This document shows, piece after piece, positions 2,665-29,125 of a DNA stretch of 32,701 nucleotides. The stretch covers positions 1 to 32,701 of the forward strand of contig CACYHR010000038.1 of the NCBI GenBank assembly GCA_902774265.1, given 5' to 3'. A program made the position numbers and the translations under genes. The stretch's first letter is position 1; each line of letters begins with the position of its first letter. The notes under the pieces are model-generated. The model searched no databases, was not told the origin of the DNA, and saw only the letters and a program-made list of their open reading frames with translations. This stretch comes from an uncultured Eubacteriales bacterium (GTDB lineage Bacteria > Bacillota > Clostridia > Peptostreptococcales > Anaerovoracaceae).

Positions 2665-3063
2665 ATGGAAACAAAACATGTTGTCGCGGCAGTAATTGAA
2701 AAAGACGGCCGCATTTTCGCTGCACAGAGAGGATATGGCGATTACAGAGACTGGTGGGAGTTTCCCGGAGGCAAGATCGAAGCGGGAGAGACCCCCGAAG
2801 AAGCGCTGAAGCGTGAGATCCGTGAGGAGCTTCGGGCAGAGATAAGAATCGGCGAGCTGATCTGTACCATCGAATATGATTATCCGAAATTTCACATGAT
2901 AATGCAGTGCTATCTATGCGAAATGCTTTCGGACGGGATGGAGCTGGTTGAGCACGAAGCTGCCCGCTGGCTCTGCGCAGATGACATCCTGTCGGTAAAA
3001 TGGCTTCCGTCGGACATCGAATTAGTGGAAAAGCTGAAGAAACGACTGGAAAAGAATAGCTGA
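2665..3063 (+). CDS. Nudix hydrolase, MutT-like (8-oxo-dGTP/CTP pyrophosphohydrolase type)
   Basis: The 132-residue protein matches the usual length of MutT-family nucleotide-sanitising hydrolases. The Nudix box is complete: GGKIEAGETPEEALKREI followed by REEL, at about residues 36-57, supplying the glutamates that bind Mg. The start METKHVVAAVI resembles MutT N-termini and is supported by the AAAGGAG site five bases upstream. The likely substrate is an oxidised or non-canonical nucleoside triphosphate, but the exact one cannot be read from sequence. The stop codon of the LRR gene overlaps its ribosome site, and the GNAT gene follows ten bases later, so it sits in the middle of a small operon. 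Confidence 0.88.
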   Translation: METKHVVAAVIEKDGRIFAAQRGYGDYRDWWEFPGGKIEAGETPEEALKREIREELRAEIRIGELICTIEYDYPKFHMIMQCYLCEMLSDGMELVEHEAARWLCADDILSVKWLPSDIELVEKLKKRLEKNS

Positions 3064-3073
3064 ACAGAAATCT

Positions 3074-4447
3074 ATGAAGAAGATGAAACAAATGAAATTA
3101 CGTGAATTCCGCCCGGATGATGCTGTGGCGATATGCCGCTGGGTAAACAGCGAAAATGCTTTGTACGAATGGTCTGCGAACCGGATCGGAAAGTATCCGT
3201 TTACAGCCGATGATCTTACTGCGCATCATCTTACTGCGATGAAAAATGAACGCTTTATGCCGTTCACATTTGTTGATAATACTGATGAACCGATCGGGCA
3301 TATTGCAATCAGATATCCGGAAGAAAACGATAATTCCGCAATTCGCTTCGGTTTTGTCATAATCGATCCGGAGTTCAGACGAAGGGGGATGGCCACTGAA
3401 ATGCTTGATGCAGCATGTGTTTATGCTGCGTCAGTGCTGAATGCAGAAACAGCATCTGTGTCCGTATTCACCGCAAATGAAAAAGCTGTCAAATGCTATT
3501 ATTCCGCCGGATTCCGCTGGAACGGAGAGGCGGAGAAGTATGAACTTCCCATCGGGGAACGTGAAGGGATCATAATGGAGAAATCACTCGTCCCGTATTC
3601 AACCAGGAGCAAAGCTCCCGGTGTCTGTTATATGAATGACTGCGATGCATACGGGCAGTACAGACTCAATAAACGCAATAATATTTCAAGAGAGCTGCTG
3701 AATGATGTCCGCAGCTTCCTGGACCGTGAATGGATAGATCTGTCCGGCTTCGATCGGTTTGATGACGAAAGCAGAAATGCATCCGGCGTTGCTTACAGTG
3801 CGCCGGACATGGATGGATCCGTTCGTTCGGCGCAGTATCATGATGAGAATGATCTTTGGGCTGAGACAGATTTTGCAAAAGAAAAGACTGCGACACGCAG
3901 ACGCCCGACACTCAGAGAAAGGATTTTTTCGGAAGGCAGCCGGAAACCCGGGAAAAGCCAGAAGCAATCCCCGGAGGAATATGAAGATTTACCATATTTG
4001 TCTTCAAATGAAATAAGATATGAATCGTCGTCCTGCAATGATGATTTGCTTGCAGCAGAAACACCGGTGCAGTATGCGAACCGGATAGAAGACATTTTCG
4101 CCGGCCTCGGACAGACCTTTCAGGAGAAACTGCTCAGCATTATCGATTCAAAGGGCATGACTGATGCGCAGGTGTATACAAAGGCTAATCTCGACCGCCG
4201 TCTGTTTTCAAAGATCAGATGCAACATAAACTATAAACCGTCTAAAGCTACAGTACTTGCGCTTGCAATCGCGCTGGGTCTGAATCTGGACGAAACGACG
4301 GATCTTCTCGGTCGCGCCGGACTGGCGCTGTCGCCTAGCAGCAAGGCCGATCTTATAGTCAAATACTGCATAATAAATAAAATACATGACATTCTCGATG
4401 TCAACGCGATATTGTATGAATACGACCAGCCTCTGCTCGGCTGCTGA
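3074..4447 (+). CDS. GNAT acetyltransferase fused to a regulator-like C-terminal protein
   Basis: Residues 7-170 are a GNAT N-acetyltransferase with the acetyl-CoA loop RRRGMA at 102-107 and the terminal ANEKAVKCYYSAGF motif. Residues 176-186 (STRSKAPGVCY) are the translation of a dispersed repeat copy. Residues 187-457 are a second protein. Its last 110 residues (FQEKLLSIID through DQPLLGC) resemble a helical, helix-turn-helix-like domain common in Clostridia, recalled from memory as found beside vWA genes, as here. The middle is charged and probably disordered. A start for the second part exists at 3632, so two proteins may be made. No ribosome site is obvious at 3074; ATGs at 3083 and 3092 are alternatives. 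The GNAT substrate is unknown. Confidence 0.72.
   Translation: MKKMKQMKLREFRPDDAVAICRWVNSENALYEWSANRIGKYPFTADDLTAHHLTAMKNERFMPFTFVDNTDEPIGHIAIRYPEENDNSAIRFGFVIIDPEFRRRGMATEMLDAACVYAASVLNAETASVSVFTANEKAVKCYYSAGFRWNGEAEKYELPIGEREGIIMEKSLVPYSTRSKAPGVCYMNDCDAYGQYRLNKRNNISRELLNDVRSFLDREWIDLSGFDRFDDESRNASGVAYSAPDMDGSVRSAQYHDENDLWAETDFAKEKTATRRRPTLRERIFSEGSRKPGKSQKQSPEEYEDLPYLSSNEIRYESSSCNDDLLAAETPVQYANRIEDIFAGLGQTFQEKLLSIIDSKGMTDAQVYTKANLDRRLFSKIRCNINYKPSKATVLALAIALGLNLDETTDLLGRAGLALSPSSKADLIVKYCIINKIHDILDVNAILYEYDQPLLGC
3598..3631 (+). repeat. Dispersed repeat end at the GNAT fusion junction
   Basis: The copy holds AGGAGCAAAGCTCC followed by CCGGTGTCTGTTAT, the reverse complement of the family end ATAACAGACACCGG. 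Its first 21 bases are identical to 1896-1916. It has no stop codon in the reading frame used by the surrounding gene and lies between its two recognisable domains. Confidence 0.75.
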
Positions 4448-12984: not shown

Positions 12985-15527
12985 TTATTTCACTTTTCCG
13001 CTGACAACGGTCTTGCTGTATTCTCCATTCTGATCATTCGACGCCACAGCGCATACCTTGACCTGATAGCGGCGGCCCTTCCGCAGGCCTTTGATTACAA
13101 GTTTTGTGCCCGATTTTGCTTTGAAGCTCTTTGAAGACCATTTTTTGCTGCCCTTTGCACGATATTTGACCTTGTATTTAACAACGCCCGATGCCTTCTG
13201 GCTTTTGACCTTTACAGTCATTTTTCCGCTGCCGGTACTCAGACTTCTGATAACTGATTTTTTCGGAATGATGCTGAAGTAAACTTTTTCGCTGCCGCTG
13301 TATACAGGATCTCCGGGCTTGATCTTTATAATGATCTCAGCATCGCCGCATTTCACATTCTTCCTGTACTTGTATGTATAATGGCTGGCAGGGATGATTT
13401 CTTCCATATCATCTTCGACTTCAAACTTAGGTTTGTGCGCTTTTCCGTCGTATACTATACCATCATCGATAAATACACTTACTGCAGATATAGTCTTCTT
13501 TTCAACGGACAGAGGCACTGCTATTGTTCCGATGCCTTCGGCAGTAACATACATAAGAGCGCGTCCGATACCCTTTGAAGTTACTGTGACCTTTGTCGGT
13601 TCCTTAGGATCCGGGGTAAGAGTGAATATGTCGGAGCCTCCCTCTGCAAGTTCCCAGCTGATCTCAGGAGTATCAAAATCATCTCCGCTGTCTCCGGCGA
13701 AAAGCAGTTTTAAGGTGGAAGAATTGTCCCCCTCTGCATGACCGATTTCCGTATCTCCGGATATCCTCATGCTGATATTCGGCAGAGGAGTGCTGTAGCC
13801 CTTGATCGGGAAATTGTCAAATGAGAACAGAAGATTTGATATATCCAAGAGTTTTTCGCGAAGCTTTGAATCCGAGTAATCGAACCAGTGACCATCGGCA
13901 TATAAGAAGCTTTCGCCCTTGTTTATCACGCCTTCTACCCATATTCCCGAATCAAAACCATAAACCTTATACGCCTCTTTATTCATGGCAATAGGGAAAT
14001 TGAATGCGTATTCTCCTTCAGGCGTGATCTGTGTCTGAACTATAGAGTAGTGCTGACCTTTCTGGATTATATCCGGACTGGCAAGATCGATCTTGTGGAA
14101 TCCGCCGAGTCTGAATGCTGTCTCGGTTCTGTCAACCAGCTTTCCATCGGTTGGATCACTGAATTCATCAGGGAGAAGATATACTTCATTTATGACTTTT
14201 GTATTTGCGAAGGTAGTCTCGCATGATACCTGTTCAAGAAGTTCACATTCATCTGCCTCAAAAACATTAGACATACGGATCTTGTCAGGTACAGAAGCGC
14301 CGCTGATATCATCCACGGGCATAAAATCATGCTCATCAAGATTATATGCTGATCCTACATTGCTCTTGTCAAAGTCGAGTGCTTCCGGAGTGCACAGAGT
14401 TTTATCATAATACGAAAGCCAGAAATATCCTGTATGCTGGCCTTTGCTGTTTTCGATACCCCAGCCCGGTCCCCTGTCAGGGAAGGATCTCTCCTGTGAT
14501 CCCCAGCTGTTCTTGATGAGCCATGCACCGTTTGCAGGAGGCTGATGACCTTCTATGAAGTTGCTCTTATCATAGTTGTCATCCCAGCCGACTATTGTGA
14601 CGGCATGATTCGCATACCCGGTAGCATCATATGTGTAGTGAGCCCAGTTTCTGCTTATATACTTGCCGTCACCCGGTTCCTGGCTCGGATTGAATGTATC
14701 AGCGCAGAATCCAATCTGAACAGCGCGCTTGCTCATAAGCATTTCCTTTATCTGGGAGGTTCCTTCAGGATTATAAGTATACTCTTCTGTCTCGTAATTA
14801 ACCTGTGCCGGAGAATCAAGTATGAAGGATTCCTTAAGAACATAAGACTGCCTGAACCTCATTTCTTCAGGCAGCGACCAGTCATCCTTGTCATCATAGC
14901 AGTAATCGCGCACCTTTCCGTCAGATGACCTTTTGATAGTCCACTTGTTCAGACCGGAATAATTATGATCGGTCCTGTACCGGAAGCAAACAGGCTGGTA
15001 GCCATGAATGAGAATCCTCCACCGTTCAGCTTGTCGGCAATTGTAACACCTTCATCACAATGTGTTCCCTCGCCGAATTGCGGACTGGAAGGATCGTTTA
15101 TTGCCTCACTGACGAAGTATACAAGGTGTTTTTCAGATAGATCCAGGGTGTTTACATCATATCCGTCTTTTGCGGCAAGCCCCGATCCCAGCAGGCTGCT
15201 TTCGGCAGCAGCGATAGCTGCAAATCCCCAGCATGTGCCGAAAGGATTCTGGAATTTTACCGGAGTTACGCAGTTGTAATCGCGAAGGTCATATGATTCC
15301 GGGAAATCTTCTGCAGCTTTTACTGCAGAATCGCCTTCTGTGCTTCTGAACGGATCATTTTCCGGATCCTGGAGCCGGGCAGCCAGCGCAGACAATGCCT
15401 TGCCGTCATATGAAACACTGTTTGAAGCATCGTTTGAAGCATCGCCGGCTGATTCCGCATATGCCGCAGGAACCATGGCAAACAACATGCTCAGCGACAC
15501 CAGAACAGTAAGGATTCTCTTGATCAT
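12985..15527 (-). pseudogene. Secreted papain-family (C1) cysteine protease, frameshifted
   Basis: The reading frame is broken between about 14950 and 14990. The first part (start ATG at 15527, AAGGAG upstream) has a signal peptide (1-24, ending AAYA), the propeptide-like region, and the active-site segment QNPFGTCWGFAA with Q93 and C99. It runs in frame to GTGP and then hits a stop at 14949. The second part, in a different frame, resumes with DHNYSGLNKWTIKR and carries the catalytic histidine (NHAVTIVGWDDNY) and asparagine (WLIKNSWG). A lectin-like region, an MBG-type Ig domain (VSVFIDDGIVYDGKAHKP) and a C-terminal fibronectin-type domain follow. Cysteine and histidine lie in different frames, so no active enzyme is made unless the frame is corrected. 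A one-base deletion or a sequencing error would explain it. Originally a surface protease. Confidence 0.8.
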
Positions 15528-15556
15528 GGTAGTACTCCTTATCTTGTATTTGCAAT

Positions 15557-15599
15557 AAATTTGCAGTCTGCATATTGCAACGCAGAGCCGCAAATTTGC
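15557..15599. promoter_or_regulatory. Cluster of TTGCA/AAATTTGC boxes upstream of the protease gene
   Basis: AAATTTGC occurs at 15557-15564 and again inside the palindrome GCAAATTTGC (15590-15599), with TTGCAA between them, 30-75 bases upstream of the protease ATG on its own strand. The spacing suits an operator, but no regulator is assigned. Confidence 0.25.
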
Positions 15600-15614
15600 C
15601 ATTGACATTCGGAT

Positions 15615-19537: not shown

Positions 19538-19846
19538 GGGTGTATCATTTTGTGTTTCTTCAGAATTCATACACCGCTTTTCTCAAATGCGGTGTATAAT
19601 TTGCGAAAATTAGTTTTTTTTTACACCCGAAGACCATCAAAATGCCTTGTTCTGCGTCATAATGAGACAATCGGGTGTATTATTCTGCTCATTTACAGAA
19701 TCCATACACCGTTTTTCCGATATTACGGTGTATAAATAGTGAAATTCAGCCATTCTATACACCCAAAGGCCGTCAAATGGACGTTTACGAGGGGCAAATC
19801 GGGAAAAATGGTGTATGAAATGAAGAAAATGCTCGAAAAATACACC
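19538..19846. repeat. 2.3-copy, 135-136 base tandem repeat of nested GTGTA palindromes
   Basis: Each unit carries boxes in alternating orientation: GGGTGTAT (19538, 19673; diverged at 19810), ATACACCG (19569, 19704; ATACACC at 19840), CGGTGTAT (19590, 19726) and TACACCC (19622, 19758). Spacing between equivalent boxes is 135 or 136 bases throughout. The two middle boxes form perfect hairpins: ATACACCGC with GCGGTGTAT in unit one, and ATACACCGT with ACGGTGTAT in unit two. The outer GGGTGTA and TACACCC can pair around them. TACACCCGA (19622-19630) is also the exact inverse of TCGGGTGTA (19671-19679). Box spacers are partly conserved (CCxTCAAA). The third unit is incomplete. The array fills the gap between the divergent HAD and ketopantoate-reductase-like genes. 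It contains no gene. I do not recognise it as a known RNA or operator family. Confidence 0.8.
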
Positions 19847-20030
19847 TCAAGTGGTACCTGCTGCGTTCAGTGCACTGCTACTCCGTTTTGTATTCAAGTG
19901 AGATCGTTATTCGACAGATCAAATCGATCAATTGAATTGTTATCAGGCGGTCTGTGTGATAGTATAGTTCCGGTATGAACCGTAACACATGCCGAACGAT
20001 CAGATATTAGTTCTAAACAGGTGATTATTG

Positions 20031-24493: not shown

Positions 24494-26020
24494 ATGGAAA
24501 CAGTGGCAGAGCGTATTGCTCGTAAGGTAAATGAAAAGGGCGGCAGAGCGTTCTATGTCGGTGGATATGTTCGTGACCGTGTGCTCGGGATCGACAGCAA
24601 GGATGTAGATATAGAGGTCCACGGTATAGAGCCTGACAGCTTATATGAAATTCTGCAGCAGATAGGAGAACCGCTTTCATACGGCAAAAGCTTTGGCGTG
24701 TATTCGCTTGCAGGCGAGGAAATCGATATAGCGATGCCGCGCAGGGAGCGGGCCGCAGATCACGAAAACCGCGGCGCCGATGCAGCGAAGCGGCCTGCGG
24801 ATCACGAAAACCACTGTACCTGCTCTGATAAAAAAACAGCTGACTGCACAAGTACAGGAGGTTCATCTGCAGGCGTTCCCGCCAGAGGTCACAGAGATTT
24901 CGAGATCGAGATCGACCCTTATATAGGAACATATGAAGCAGCAAGGCGGCGTGATTTTACAATAAATGCACTGATGCAGGACGTCCTGACCGGAGAGATA
25001 ATCGATCATTTCGGCGGACTTGAGGATCTGCAGAACGGAATAATACGTCATATATATGCCGAAGCATTCGTTGAAGATCCCCTGAGAGTGTTAAGGGCAG
25101 CACAATTCGCGGCGCGATTCGGATTCACTGTTGCGCCGGAGACTATAGAGCTTTGCCGTGGCATTGATCTTTCGGCTCTGTCCCGCGAACGAGTTGAAGA
25201 GGAACTCAAAAAAGCACTGCTGAAGGCGGATAAGCCATCGATCTTTTTTGAAACCCTGAGAAGCATGGACCAGCTGGGGATATGGTTCACGGAACTGGAG
25301 CAGACAATTGGCCTGGAGCAGGATCCGGTATTCCATCCCGAGGGCGATGTCTGGACGCATTCGATGCAGGTACTGGACCGTGCGGCAGCTAATCGCAGCA
25401 ATGCGTCCGAACCATACAGATTCATGCTTTTTGCACTGGTGCACGACCTCGGCAAAATAAGTACGACGGAGCGGATCAAGGGCCGCATCCATTCATATGA
25501 ACATGAGACCAAAGGGCTGCCCGTTGTTGAGAGCTTTGCAAGACGCGTCACAGCTGAAAAAGGAGTGATAGATTATCTGCTCAATATGGTGCCGCTCCAC
25601 ATGAGACCGAATGTAATGGCGTATTCCAGATCCGCTGTCAAATCCACAAACAAACTCTTTGATCTGGCAGATGCCCCTGAGGATCTTATTTATTTTGCGG
25701 ATGCTGACAGACCGCTCTTCTCCGGCACGGAAGCTTTTTCGGGAGACAGTGCCTTCCTGTTTGAACGGCTGTCACTGTTCAATGAAATGATGGAAAAGCC
25801 GTATGTCATGGGCCGTGACCTGATAGATGCGGGGCTTGAACCCGGGGAGGATTTCGGAGAAATACTTGATTTCGCGCATAAACTAAGGCTTGCCGGGATC
25901 GAAAAAGAGCTCGCGCTGAAGCAGGCGCTTGCTTACGCGCGCAAGCTTCGCAGAGAGCGGGATAATCGTGCACGGCAAAGTGAGTCGACCAAGTCAGACC
26001 AAAAGAATGCGCAAACATAA
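24494..26020 (+). CDS. cca: CCA-adding tRNA nucleotidyltransferase with C-terminal HD domain
   Basis: Adds or repairs the 3' CCA end of tRNAs. The 508-residue protein has the class II head: GGYVRD at 23-28, the metal pair DVD at 37-39, the RRRDFTINAL motif near 150-160, and EDPLRVLRAAQFAARFGF for nucleotide recognition. A later HD domain contains HPEGDVWTHSMQ and LVHDLGK. Residues about 86-130 are an insert in the loop between DIAMPRRER and GHRDFEIEIDP, where relatives have only a few residues. The insert includes RAADHEN and RPADHEN, two copies 14 residues apart. No clear ribosome site precedes the ATG at 24494. The 3' end overlaps a possible upstream extension of the next gene. Confidence 0.93.
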   Translation: METVAERIARKVNEKGGRAFYVGGYVRDRVLGIDSKDVDIEVHGIEPDSLYEILQQIGEPLSYGKSFGVYSLAGEEIDIAMPRRERAADHENRGADAAKRPADHENHCTCSDKKTADCTSTGGSSAGVPARGHRDFEIEIDPYIGTYEAARRRDFTINALMQDVLTGEIIDHFGGLEDLQNGIIRHIYAEAFVEDPLRVLRAAQFAARFGFTVAPETIELCRGIDLSALSRERVEEELKKALLKADKPSIFFETLRSMDQLGIWFTELEQTIGLEQDPVFHPEGDVWTHSMQVLDRAAANRSNASEPYRFMLFALVHDLGKISTTERIKGRIHSYEHETKGLPVVESFARRVTAEKGVIDYLLNMVPLHMRPNVMAYSRSAVKSTNKLFDLADAPEDLIYFADADRPLFSGTEAFSGDSAFLFERLSLFNEMMEKPYVMGRDLIDAGLEPGEDFGEILDFAHKLRLAGIEKELALKQALAYARKLRRERDNRARQSESTKSDQKNAQT

Positions 26021-28638: not shown

Positions 28639-29125
28639 CTTTGCCCCTATAAAAGATAAATATTCCTATTTACTGATCTCGGATCCGGAAAATCAGTCAG
28701 CCCGGAGTGGCGATTCGGAACCCGGAAACGCCGTCCTAAATAATAATTCAGTTCCGATGTAAAAAACTAATTGATAATTCCGATGTAAGAGTATCTGTCT
28801 ATTCAGAAATGCACATTCAGAAATCGAAAAACCCATATTCTTTGAACAGATTCCGGTGCCTCTGATCAAACGGTATAGTTATGCTGCATTTATACTGTAT
28901 AAAAAACATAAACTCTTCCATAATGGCAGAGTCAAGAAGCGGTATTAAGTAAAACATCGGACCGTTATTAAGAAATTTGATGCTTTTTATAAATGCTTCA
29001 GCCTTTTTTAACGCCAAAAATTGCTGCCTGAAGCCGGATAATCGCCTGCAGCTATTGACTCTCGGATTGTCCTACACATTATGATTAACATATCATCCCA
29101 TAAAGATGATATTGATAATAATGAG
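28639..29125. other. Intergenic region with an uncertain small reading frame
   Basis: A 66-codon frame lies on the minus strand at 28817-29017. It encodes a peptide with a hydrophobic stretch (GPMFYLIPLLDSAIMEEFMF) and a basic start, but shows no ribosome site and matches nothing I recognise. It may be a decayed gene remnant or chance. The rest of the region is AT-rich. Confidence 0.3.

Follow-up and report, generated by a model that had tools for sequence, protein, structure and literature searches.

The Lrp family and 186 CI are wrapped-DNA regulators with multi-site operators that extend over 100–250 bp. In REPIN/RAYT (TnpA-REP) systems, the partner enzyme is a HUH/Y1 tyrosine transposase and the recognized form is a short single-stranded DNA hairpin. 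For homing endonucleases, the target site is expected to be intact in the empty allele. The array described here resembles each of these systems in part. With the operators of autoregulated repressors and wrapped-DNA regulators, it shares inverted half-sites, whole-turn spacing and placement at the regulator's own promoter. REPIN/RAYT systems (PMC3116915, PMC8049555, PMC8266576) have dispersed intergenic repeats with inverted parts that are tied to one chromosomal enzyme gene and persist for a long time, as is the case for the arrays considered here. Free-standing homing endonuclease genes, including those of the PD-(D/E)XK and EDxHD types (PMC6083498), are selfish-looking nuclease genes with private DNA recognition; the genes considered here are alike in this and in their PD-(D/E)XK-like motif.

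The array in the window and its relatives

The window, i.e. the whole stretch of 32,701 nucleotides that was analysed, contains ten exact boxes at 19539–19846, in which GGTGTA (F) alternates with TACACC (R). The boxes start at 19539 (F), 19570 (R), 19591 (F), 19622 (R), 19674 (F), 19705 (R), 19727 (F), 19758 (R), 19810 (F) and 19841 (R), and the start-to-start spacings of 31, 21, 31, 52, 31, 22, 31, 52 and 31 bp correspond to whole helical turns. Two stretches of about 50 bp recur at 135/136 bp with an identity of 75–76%, which confirms the alternating boxes and the 135–136 base register of the preliminary description. The array is not listed by TRF at its default threshold; the program lists a 26-bp tandem repeat of 2.1 copies elsewhere in the window (28737–28788).

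The boxes form five F-N25-R units on the plus strand, each with exact boxes that match the pair pattern (19539–19575, 19591–19627, 19674–19710, 19727–19763 and 19810–19846). Units 1 and 2 are separated by an inner spacer of 15 bp (19576–19590, GCTTTTCTCAAATGC) that reads as a T-tract followed by an A-tract, and units 3 and 4 by an inner spacer of 16 bp (19711–19726). The outer spacer between units 2 and 3 (19628–19673) is 46 bp long, or five turns from box to box. The last outer spacer (19764–19809, plus strand) holds a degenerate nuclease gene start with an ATG at 19777, recognized by eye from comparison with the gene at locus L125 (see below), and the start of the 19628–19673 spacer resembles, by eye, the ribosome-site/start region of this last one.

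The genes next to the array look, by eye, like those of a HAD phosphatase and a ketopantoate reductase. No replication initiator was recognized next to the array, and arrays are found at nine places in the source genome, which does not fit an iteron replication origin; the preliminary description had listed iteron-like binding sites as one option. Elsewhere in the window, a papain-like peptidase lookalike gene (12985–15608, minus strand) is seemingly split into two ORFs (14949–15608 and 12985–14913).

The source genome assembly (3.26 Mb, 110 contigs, 90.8% complete) contains GGTGTA-N25-TACACC at 27 places, compared with none for the reversed control pattern; therefore, the window array is not a product of chance. 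Chaining of the boxes gave the nine places, with 59 exact boxes and none with one mismatch, and the 27 25-nt spacers have a mean identity of 83% to their nearest copy. The GGTGTA array is a dispersed intergenic element. Among the 148 family genomes sampled, only the source genome has the longer F-R-F pattern. When the genome_contigs collection was scanned for exact matches, 13 loci came up; they belong to six MAGs, whose titles read Mogibacterium sp. (from sheep ileum and horse faeces) or uncultured Clostridiales (RUG series). Within the genus, a perfect GGTGTA pair is present in 12 of 47 genomes, seven of which have four or more (27, 24, 22, 20, 13, 4 and 4); the reversed control matched once, in one genome. 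Six of these seven array-rich genomes are apparently the six MAGs of the genome_contigs scan, based on identical coordinates or counts.

Two other origins were considered and rejected. The phage and plasmid collections searched contained no array DNA, and the nuclease matches there span the catalytic domain only, the two viral ones being the ends of long proteins that resemble helicases; these results disfavor a phage or plasmid origin. The sole F-R-F match in 2.9 million viral contigs lies in L280 (2311–2367, minus strand, IMGVR_UViG_3300045125_000107). A promoter-specific regulon was set aside on the grounds that the neighbours of solo arrays look unrelated and that some arrays seemingly lie between genes of one operon, both judged by eye.

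Several other repeats accompany the arrays. Inverted repeats of the type ACTTCCGTCC...GGACGGAAGT flank a GGTGTA array of the source genome (L032, about 2958–3000 and 3414–3456, contig C20), and ACTTCCGT/ACGGAAGT repeats also build the array that precedes the gene of a distant nuclease homologue (L174, G149); the two types are possibly a second box family in the source genome. Further repeats, TGTGTATG/CATACACA and CTGTACAG, adjoin a GGTGTA array around 3850–4450 of L134 (G149), as if several box families were nested together. The first 200 bases of L037 and L038 (contigs C84 and C93) share a near-alike stretch, with TTGACA...TATAAT on the minus strand, beside array fragments.

Relatives often contain a symmetric eight-box module of about 253 bp, F31R-51-F31R-21-F31R-51-F31R, in which boxes and spacing persist while the spacers diverge. 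At the array loci, box distances were counted between adjacent exact boxes no more than 110 bp from each other, with no spacing filter. The F-R distance is 31 bp in 111 of 122 cases, a value that is biased since the loci were picked for a 31-bp pair. The 83 R-F distances are 10 (2), 20–22 (33), 50–52 (46) or other (2) bp, and 79 of them fall in the 10, 21–22 or 51–52 bp classes; the scan that yielded L083 and L084 had the 21–22 step fixed as well. A further 18 neighbouring pairs are F-F or R-R. All of these values come close to integer multiples of 10.4 bp, and the boxes thus lie on the same side of the helix.

The A/T content around the pairs also oscillates with a period of 10.4 bp. With all boxes masked, the phase ranges from −21 to +12 degrees in nine groups (seven GGTGTA genomes, the GGTGTG pairs of G151 and the GTGTCA pairs of G102), and the phasing is similar under lighter box masking. 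The amplitude exceeds all 200 shuffles in eight of the nine groups, the exception being G152 with four units. An A/T oscillation of constant phase is a pattern pointing to duplex DNA that would be curved or wrapped on a protein.

The nuclease gene and its private boxes

At L125, the last pair of an array lies inside an ORF, such that the boxes spell codons 11–23 (MVYEQKKIRDNYT) of the protein P0001. Relative to the ATG, the L125 boxes are at −186F, −154R (one mismatch), −103F, −72R, −51F, −19R, +32F and +63R. Step by step, the module (32/51/31/21/32/51/31) differs from the solo layout by at most one base, and it is the control region of the nuclease gene, from −186 to codon 23. A second array begins 243 bp after the nuclease stop. 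L129 encodes a 54%-identical protein and has the same layout with some boxes altered. Scans of two leaders for promoter-like sites gave no clear signal (4 vs 2.8 expected; 2 vs 0.7).

The window array retains traces of such a gene. Unit 5 reads MVYEMKKMLEKYT in the frame of an open frame at 19739–19978, comparable to codons 11–23 of P0001; the distance from the ATG at 19777 to the box is one base longer than in the L125 gene, which places this ATG out of frame. Moreover, a 75-base stretch at this end of the array shares 80% DNA identity with L111, a nuclease-start remnant. Based on the degenerate start and the likeness to L111, the window array is read as a solo copy of a nuclease control region. 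The preliminary description had proposed selection on structure or protein binding, which is borne out in part; the likeness to a nuclease control region was not visible to its author.

P0001 consists of 280 residues, in which a small N-terminal region is followed by a PD-(D/E)XK-like catalytic domain. No Pfam family matches it, and its NCBIfam match to Vsr is below threshold (E 0.12). Scanned against Pfam, 24 aligned homologues matched 14 families weakly, including DUF790 (three homologues, best E 7e-5) and TPD (two, E 0.046), with no HUH family among the 14. PHROG matches include an endonuclease (five members) and a Holliday junction resolvase (four members), the best E being near 0.004. A likeness to candidate defence proteins is seen in PADLOC, where all 24 homologues scanned match the PDC-S68 profile (best E 2.7e-34), P0001 doing so through its C-terminal nuclease domain. 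The profile match to T7 endonuclease I is weak (E 0.35), and the AlphaFold2 model of a related nuclease domain has a pLDDT of 40.

Residues W147, E177, D207, Y219, E221, H222, G224 and K238 are invariant across the 24 sequences. An acidic core of the form E...(P)D...ExK, or a variant of it, is present as E177, D207 and E221, and the pattern E177-D207-E221-H222 would fit a PD-(D/E)XK-type core with a histidine near the usual position of the lysine. The N-terminal region, which we take to resemble the three-strand DNA-binding domain of integrases, may bind DNA; one of the 24 members has a weak PHROG integrase match (E 0.015).

A nuclease homologue is encoded by 68 of the 148 family genomes (E≤1e-8), often several per genome, and homologues carry other boxes at the same places. 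These are GGTGTG/CACACC (L185, G151C14a), GTGTAC (G148C43), ATGGAC or TGGACA (L194), GTTGGC (L186, L187, L199), GGTGAC (L189, L190), GTTGAC (L197) and TGTATA (L193), with GTGTCA (L195) and TGCGCA (G152C45) occurring upstream only. An inverted 6-mer pair at 27, 29 or 31 bp within +0 to +95 with at least three upstream copies was detected in 11 of 48 homologues, compared with 0 of 285 downstream control windows (11 homologues and one control window with at least two upstream copies); L185 and G151C14a were missed because of the low-complexity filter. At least two inverted pairs at 26–35 bp in −400 to +95 were detected in 19 of 46 homologues, the remaining 27 having fewer than two; the controls gave 9 of 364 for the upstream regions of other genes and 0 of 200 for shuffles.

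The boxes also recur away from the nuclease genes. GGTGTG-N25-CACACC occurs 14 times in G151, four times in G135, once in G000 and in none of six other genomes searched, with three pairs each in G151 and G135 at the nuclease gene itself. GTGTCA-N23-TGACAC occurs 12 times in G102 (five at the gene and seven elsewhere), once in nine other genomes and not at all in 138; its reversed control occurs once in five genomes. Mixed arrays of G151, L121 and L124 (contigs C8, 32304/32438, and C11, 99127/99261), have GGTGTA and GGTGTG pairs 134 bp apart, an arrangement suggesting boxes that may be in transition.

Solo arrays with the box of the resident nuclease are found in G150, G151 and G102, so that the repeat type goes with the enzyme, as in REPIN/RAYT, in these three genomes, a match that was not seen in G000, G148, G149 or G152; the rule that the box follows the nuclease holds in only some genomes. 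A nuclease with GGTGTA pairs in its operator was seen in only two of the seven GGTGTA-array genomes (G150 and G151). The full-length nuclease of G148 has GTGTAC, and a gene-start remnant alone lies beside GGTGTA; the nuclease of G153 is at a contig edge; G149 and G152 have distant homologues only. The assemblies of G148, G149, G152 and G000 carry GGTGTA arrays without a GGTGTA nuclease. A search with P0001 detected no homologue in the source assembly (90.8% complete), and the same search gave matches down to 24% identity in the six other genomes; profile A1 likewise detected none there, in a search run without a positive control. The source-genome gene is predicted either to lie in the unassembled part or to have been lost recently. 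The nuclease genes L167 (G151) and L129 (G150) lie just upstream of a cca tRNA nucleotidyltransferase lookalike gene; a similar cca-like gene is present in the window (24494–26020), and no nuclease homologue was found in the source genome.

Orthologous arrays and competing explanations

The window array is probably a solo copy of a nuclease operator/leader, one of the satellites of a cooperative autoregulatory array that are kept by selection on binding. The main difficulty for this reading is that no such nuclease was detected in the source assembly, although its boxes are the cleanest of all; the GGTGTA arrays of G148, G149 and G152, in assemblies with no GGTGTA nuclease, and the 27 of 46 homologues with fewer than two inverted pairs also count against it.

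Three pairs of orthologous arrays were compared (L108/L138, L136/L126 and L124/L117). Counted from the first sequence, 30/30, 12/12 and 18/18 box columns agree, compared with 173/254, 195/279 and 173/281 for the non-box columns, flanks included. The box columns of the second sequence are identical in 31/48, 12/12 and 31/36 cases; the first value reflects a 54-bp internal gap in L108 and its diverged first box, and the third a difference in the boxes themselves. Half of the six boxes of L124 (G151), among them the whole first pair, read GGTGTG or CACACC, where L117 (G152) has GGTGTA or TACACC. Since G151 has a GGTGTG nuclease besides the GGTGTA one, this difference is read as a box switch, in either direction. 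The retention of boxes while the spacers change, together with the change of both boxes in one pair, supports the selection on boxes that the preliminary description had proposed and favors its option of a multi-site operator. Relatives and paired box changes are both present, unlike what it expected of a recent chance duplication.

The principal alternative, to which we give a lower but still considerable probability, is that the nuclease mobilizes the solo arrays, which would be non-autonomous elements (MITE- or REPIN-like) of a purely selfish kind, with box conservation reflecting no more than recent copying from competent sources. The ends of the copies are in its favor. Homologies among source-genome copies often start 1–7 bases before an outer box or end within three bases after one; the outermost boxes are usually inverted, and the conserved boxes could themselves anchor these alignments. 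In G149, which contains similar array copies, the likeness of L139 to L137 and L084 breaks off one base outside the left box; the right end of the 253-bp match to L137 or L084 is uninformative because the contig of L139 stops six bases after the array. Patchy occurrence within the genus points the same way, as does a locus of G179 that is syntenic with one in G000 (neighbouring gene of 92% protein identity) and lacks the array present there, in an intergenic region too diverged for the empty site to be read at base level. Against a purely selfish origin, the arrays at shared loci are old (other columns 62–70% identical, flanks included) and have kept their boxes, one pair changed both boxes in place, an outcome not expected if selection acted on mobile copies alone, and neither a transposase, nor a target-site duplication, nor a clean empty site was seen. 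Other arrays are at places common to two to four genomes, as judged by matching flanks; together with the G179 locus, they indicate gain or loss of arrays in this family plus long residence.

A second alternative, which we regard as unlikely, is that the arrays are sites of another chromosomal protein, such as a nucleoid-organizing protein or global regulator, of which the nuclease gene is one target. Such a protein would suit the persistence of arrays where no close nuclease is assembled and solo-array neighbours that look, by eye, functionally unrelated. The box differs, however, between nuclease paralogues, even between two in G151, where both kinds of solo array are found, and a third box is present in G102. 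A single global regulator does not explain arrays whose boxes differ by nuclease paralogue.

Finally, a tandem structured RNA or processed hairpin array is very improbable: hairpin pairing between boxes is possible and T-tract/A-tract dyads occur in the inner R-N15-F spacer, but Rfam 15 covariance models matched nothing in the window and no array in 20 further loci (five matches elsewhere in these), spacer covariation was not above shuffles, and the spacings are near multiples of the B-DNA repeat with phased A/T. The structured-RNA option of the preliminary description is rejected on the Rfam and covariation results. Its hairpins and inter-unit inverted repeat are literally present, as a consequence of the alternating inversion of the boxes; there is no evidence of a folded strand, the dyad complementarity of the spacers having a z of 1.9 over 111 units (38 of 1000 shuffles as high) and per-genome values from 1.7 to −4.3.

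Proposed mechanism and relation to known systems

From the DNA, we infer binding, wrapping, regulation and mobility, the last as nuclease-driven copying of the arrays. In the preferred reading, that of an autoregulatory array with satellites, the nuclease would bind its boxes as inverted dimers; these would line up along a single face of the duplex, wrapping some 250 bp. The bound nuclease would cover its own leader and first 22–23 codons, and a dangerous enzyme would thereby repress itself. More tentatively, modules might be copied around the genome with the outer boxes as ends, perhaps through nuclease cleavage and repair, and solo modules might persist as bound satellites, sinks or target sites with their boxes under selection.

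A broader proposal, put forward with somewhat less than even confidence, is that multi-copy PD-(D/E)XK-type nucleases with private 6-bp boxes wrap a control region of about 250 bp in a nucleosome-like manner and seed lasting copies that re-evolve their boxes with nuclease specificity, which would constitute a new class of intragenomic system. If true, a common, unnamed nuclease family would be linked to a DNA element of unusually rigid architecture, offering a natural series of enzyme/site pairs for the joint evolution of DNA specificity, autoregulation and spread. For many such nucleases, the DNA at the start of their own gene is also predicted to spell out the target.

No description of such arrays was found among open-access papers, searched by listing and abstract opening. 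The described systems each differ in specific ways. The PDC-S68 profiles are about 1,200–1,270 positions long, whereas the nucleases here are stand-alone proteins of roughly 250–300 residues with arrays. In contrast to the Lrp family and 186 CI, the gene here is nuclease-like, the sites extend into its coding part and copies of the entire operator occur elsewhere in the genome. Compared to homing endonucleases, the boxes here are multiple and are located at and inside the gene. REPIN/RAYT would be the nearest analogue in behaviour, although the enzyme and DNA form here fall outside its definition: the enzyme is PD-(D/E)XK-like instead of a HUH tyrosine transposase, and the repeat is no short hairpin but a duplex array with helical phasing that can reach about 253 bp or more. 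Moreover, the repeat here doubles as the leader and 5′ coding sequence of the enzyme gene itself.
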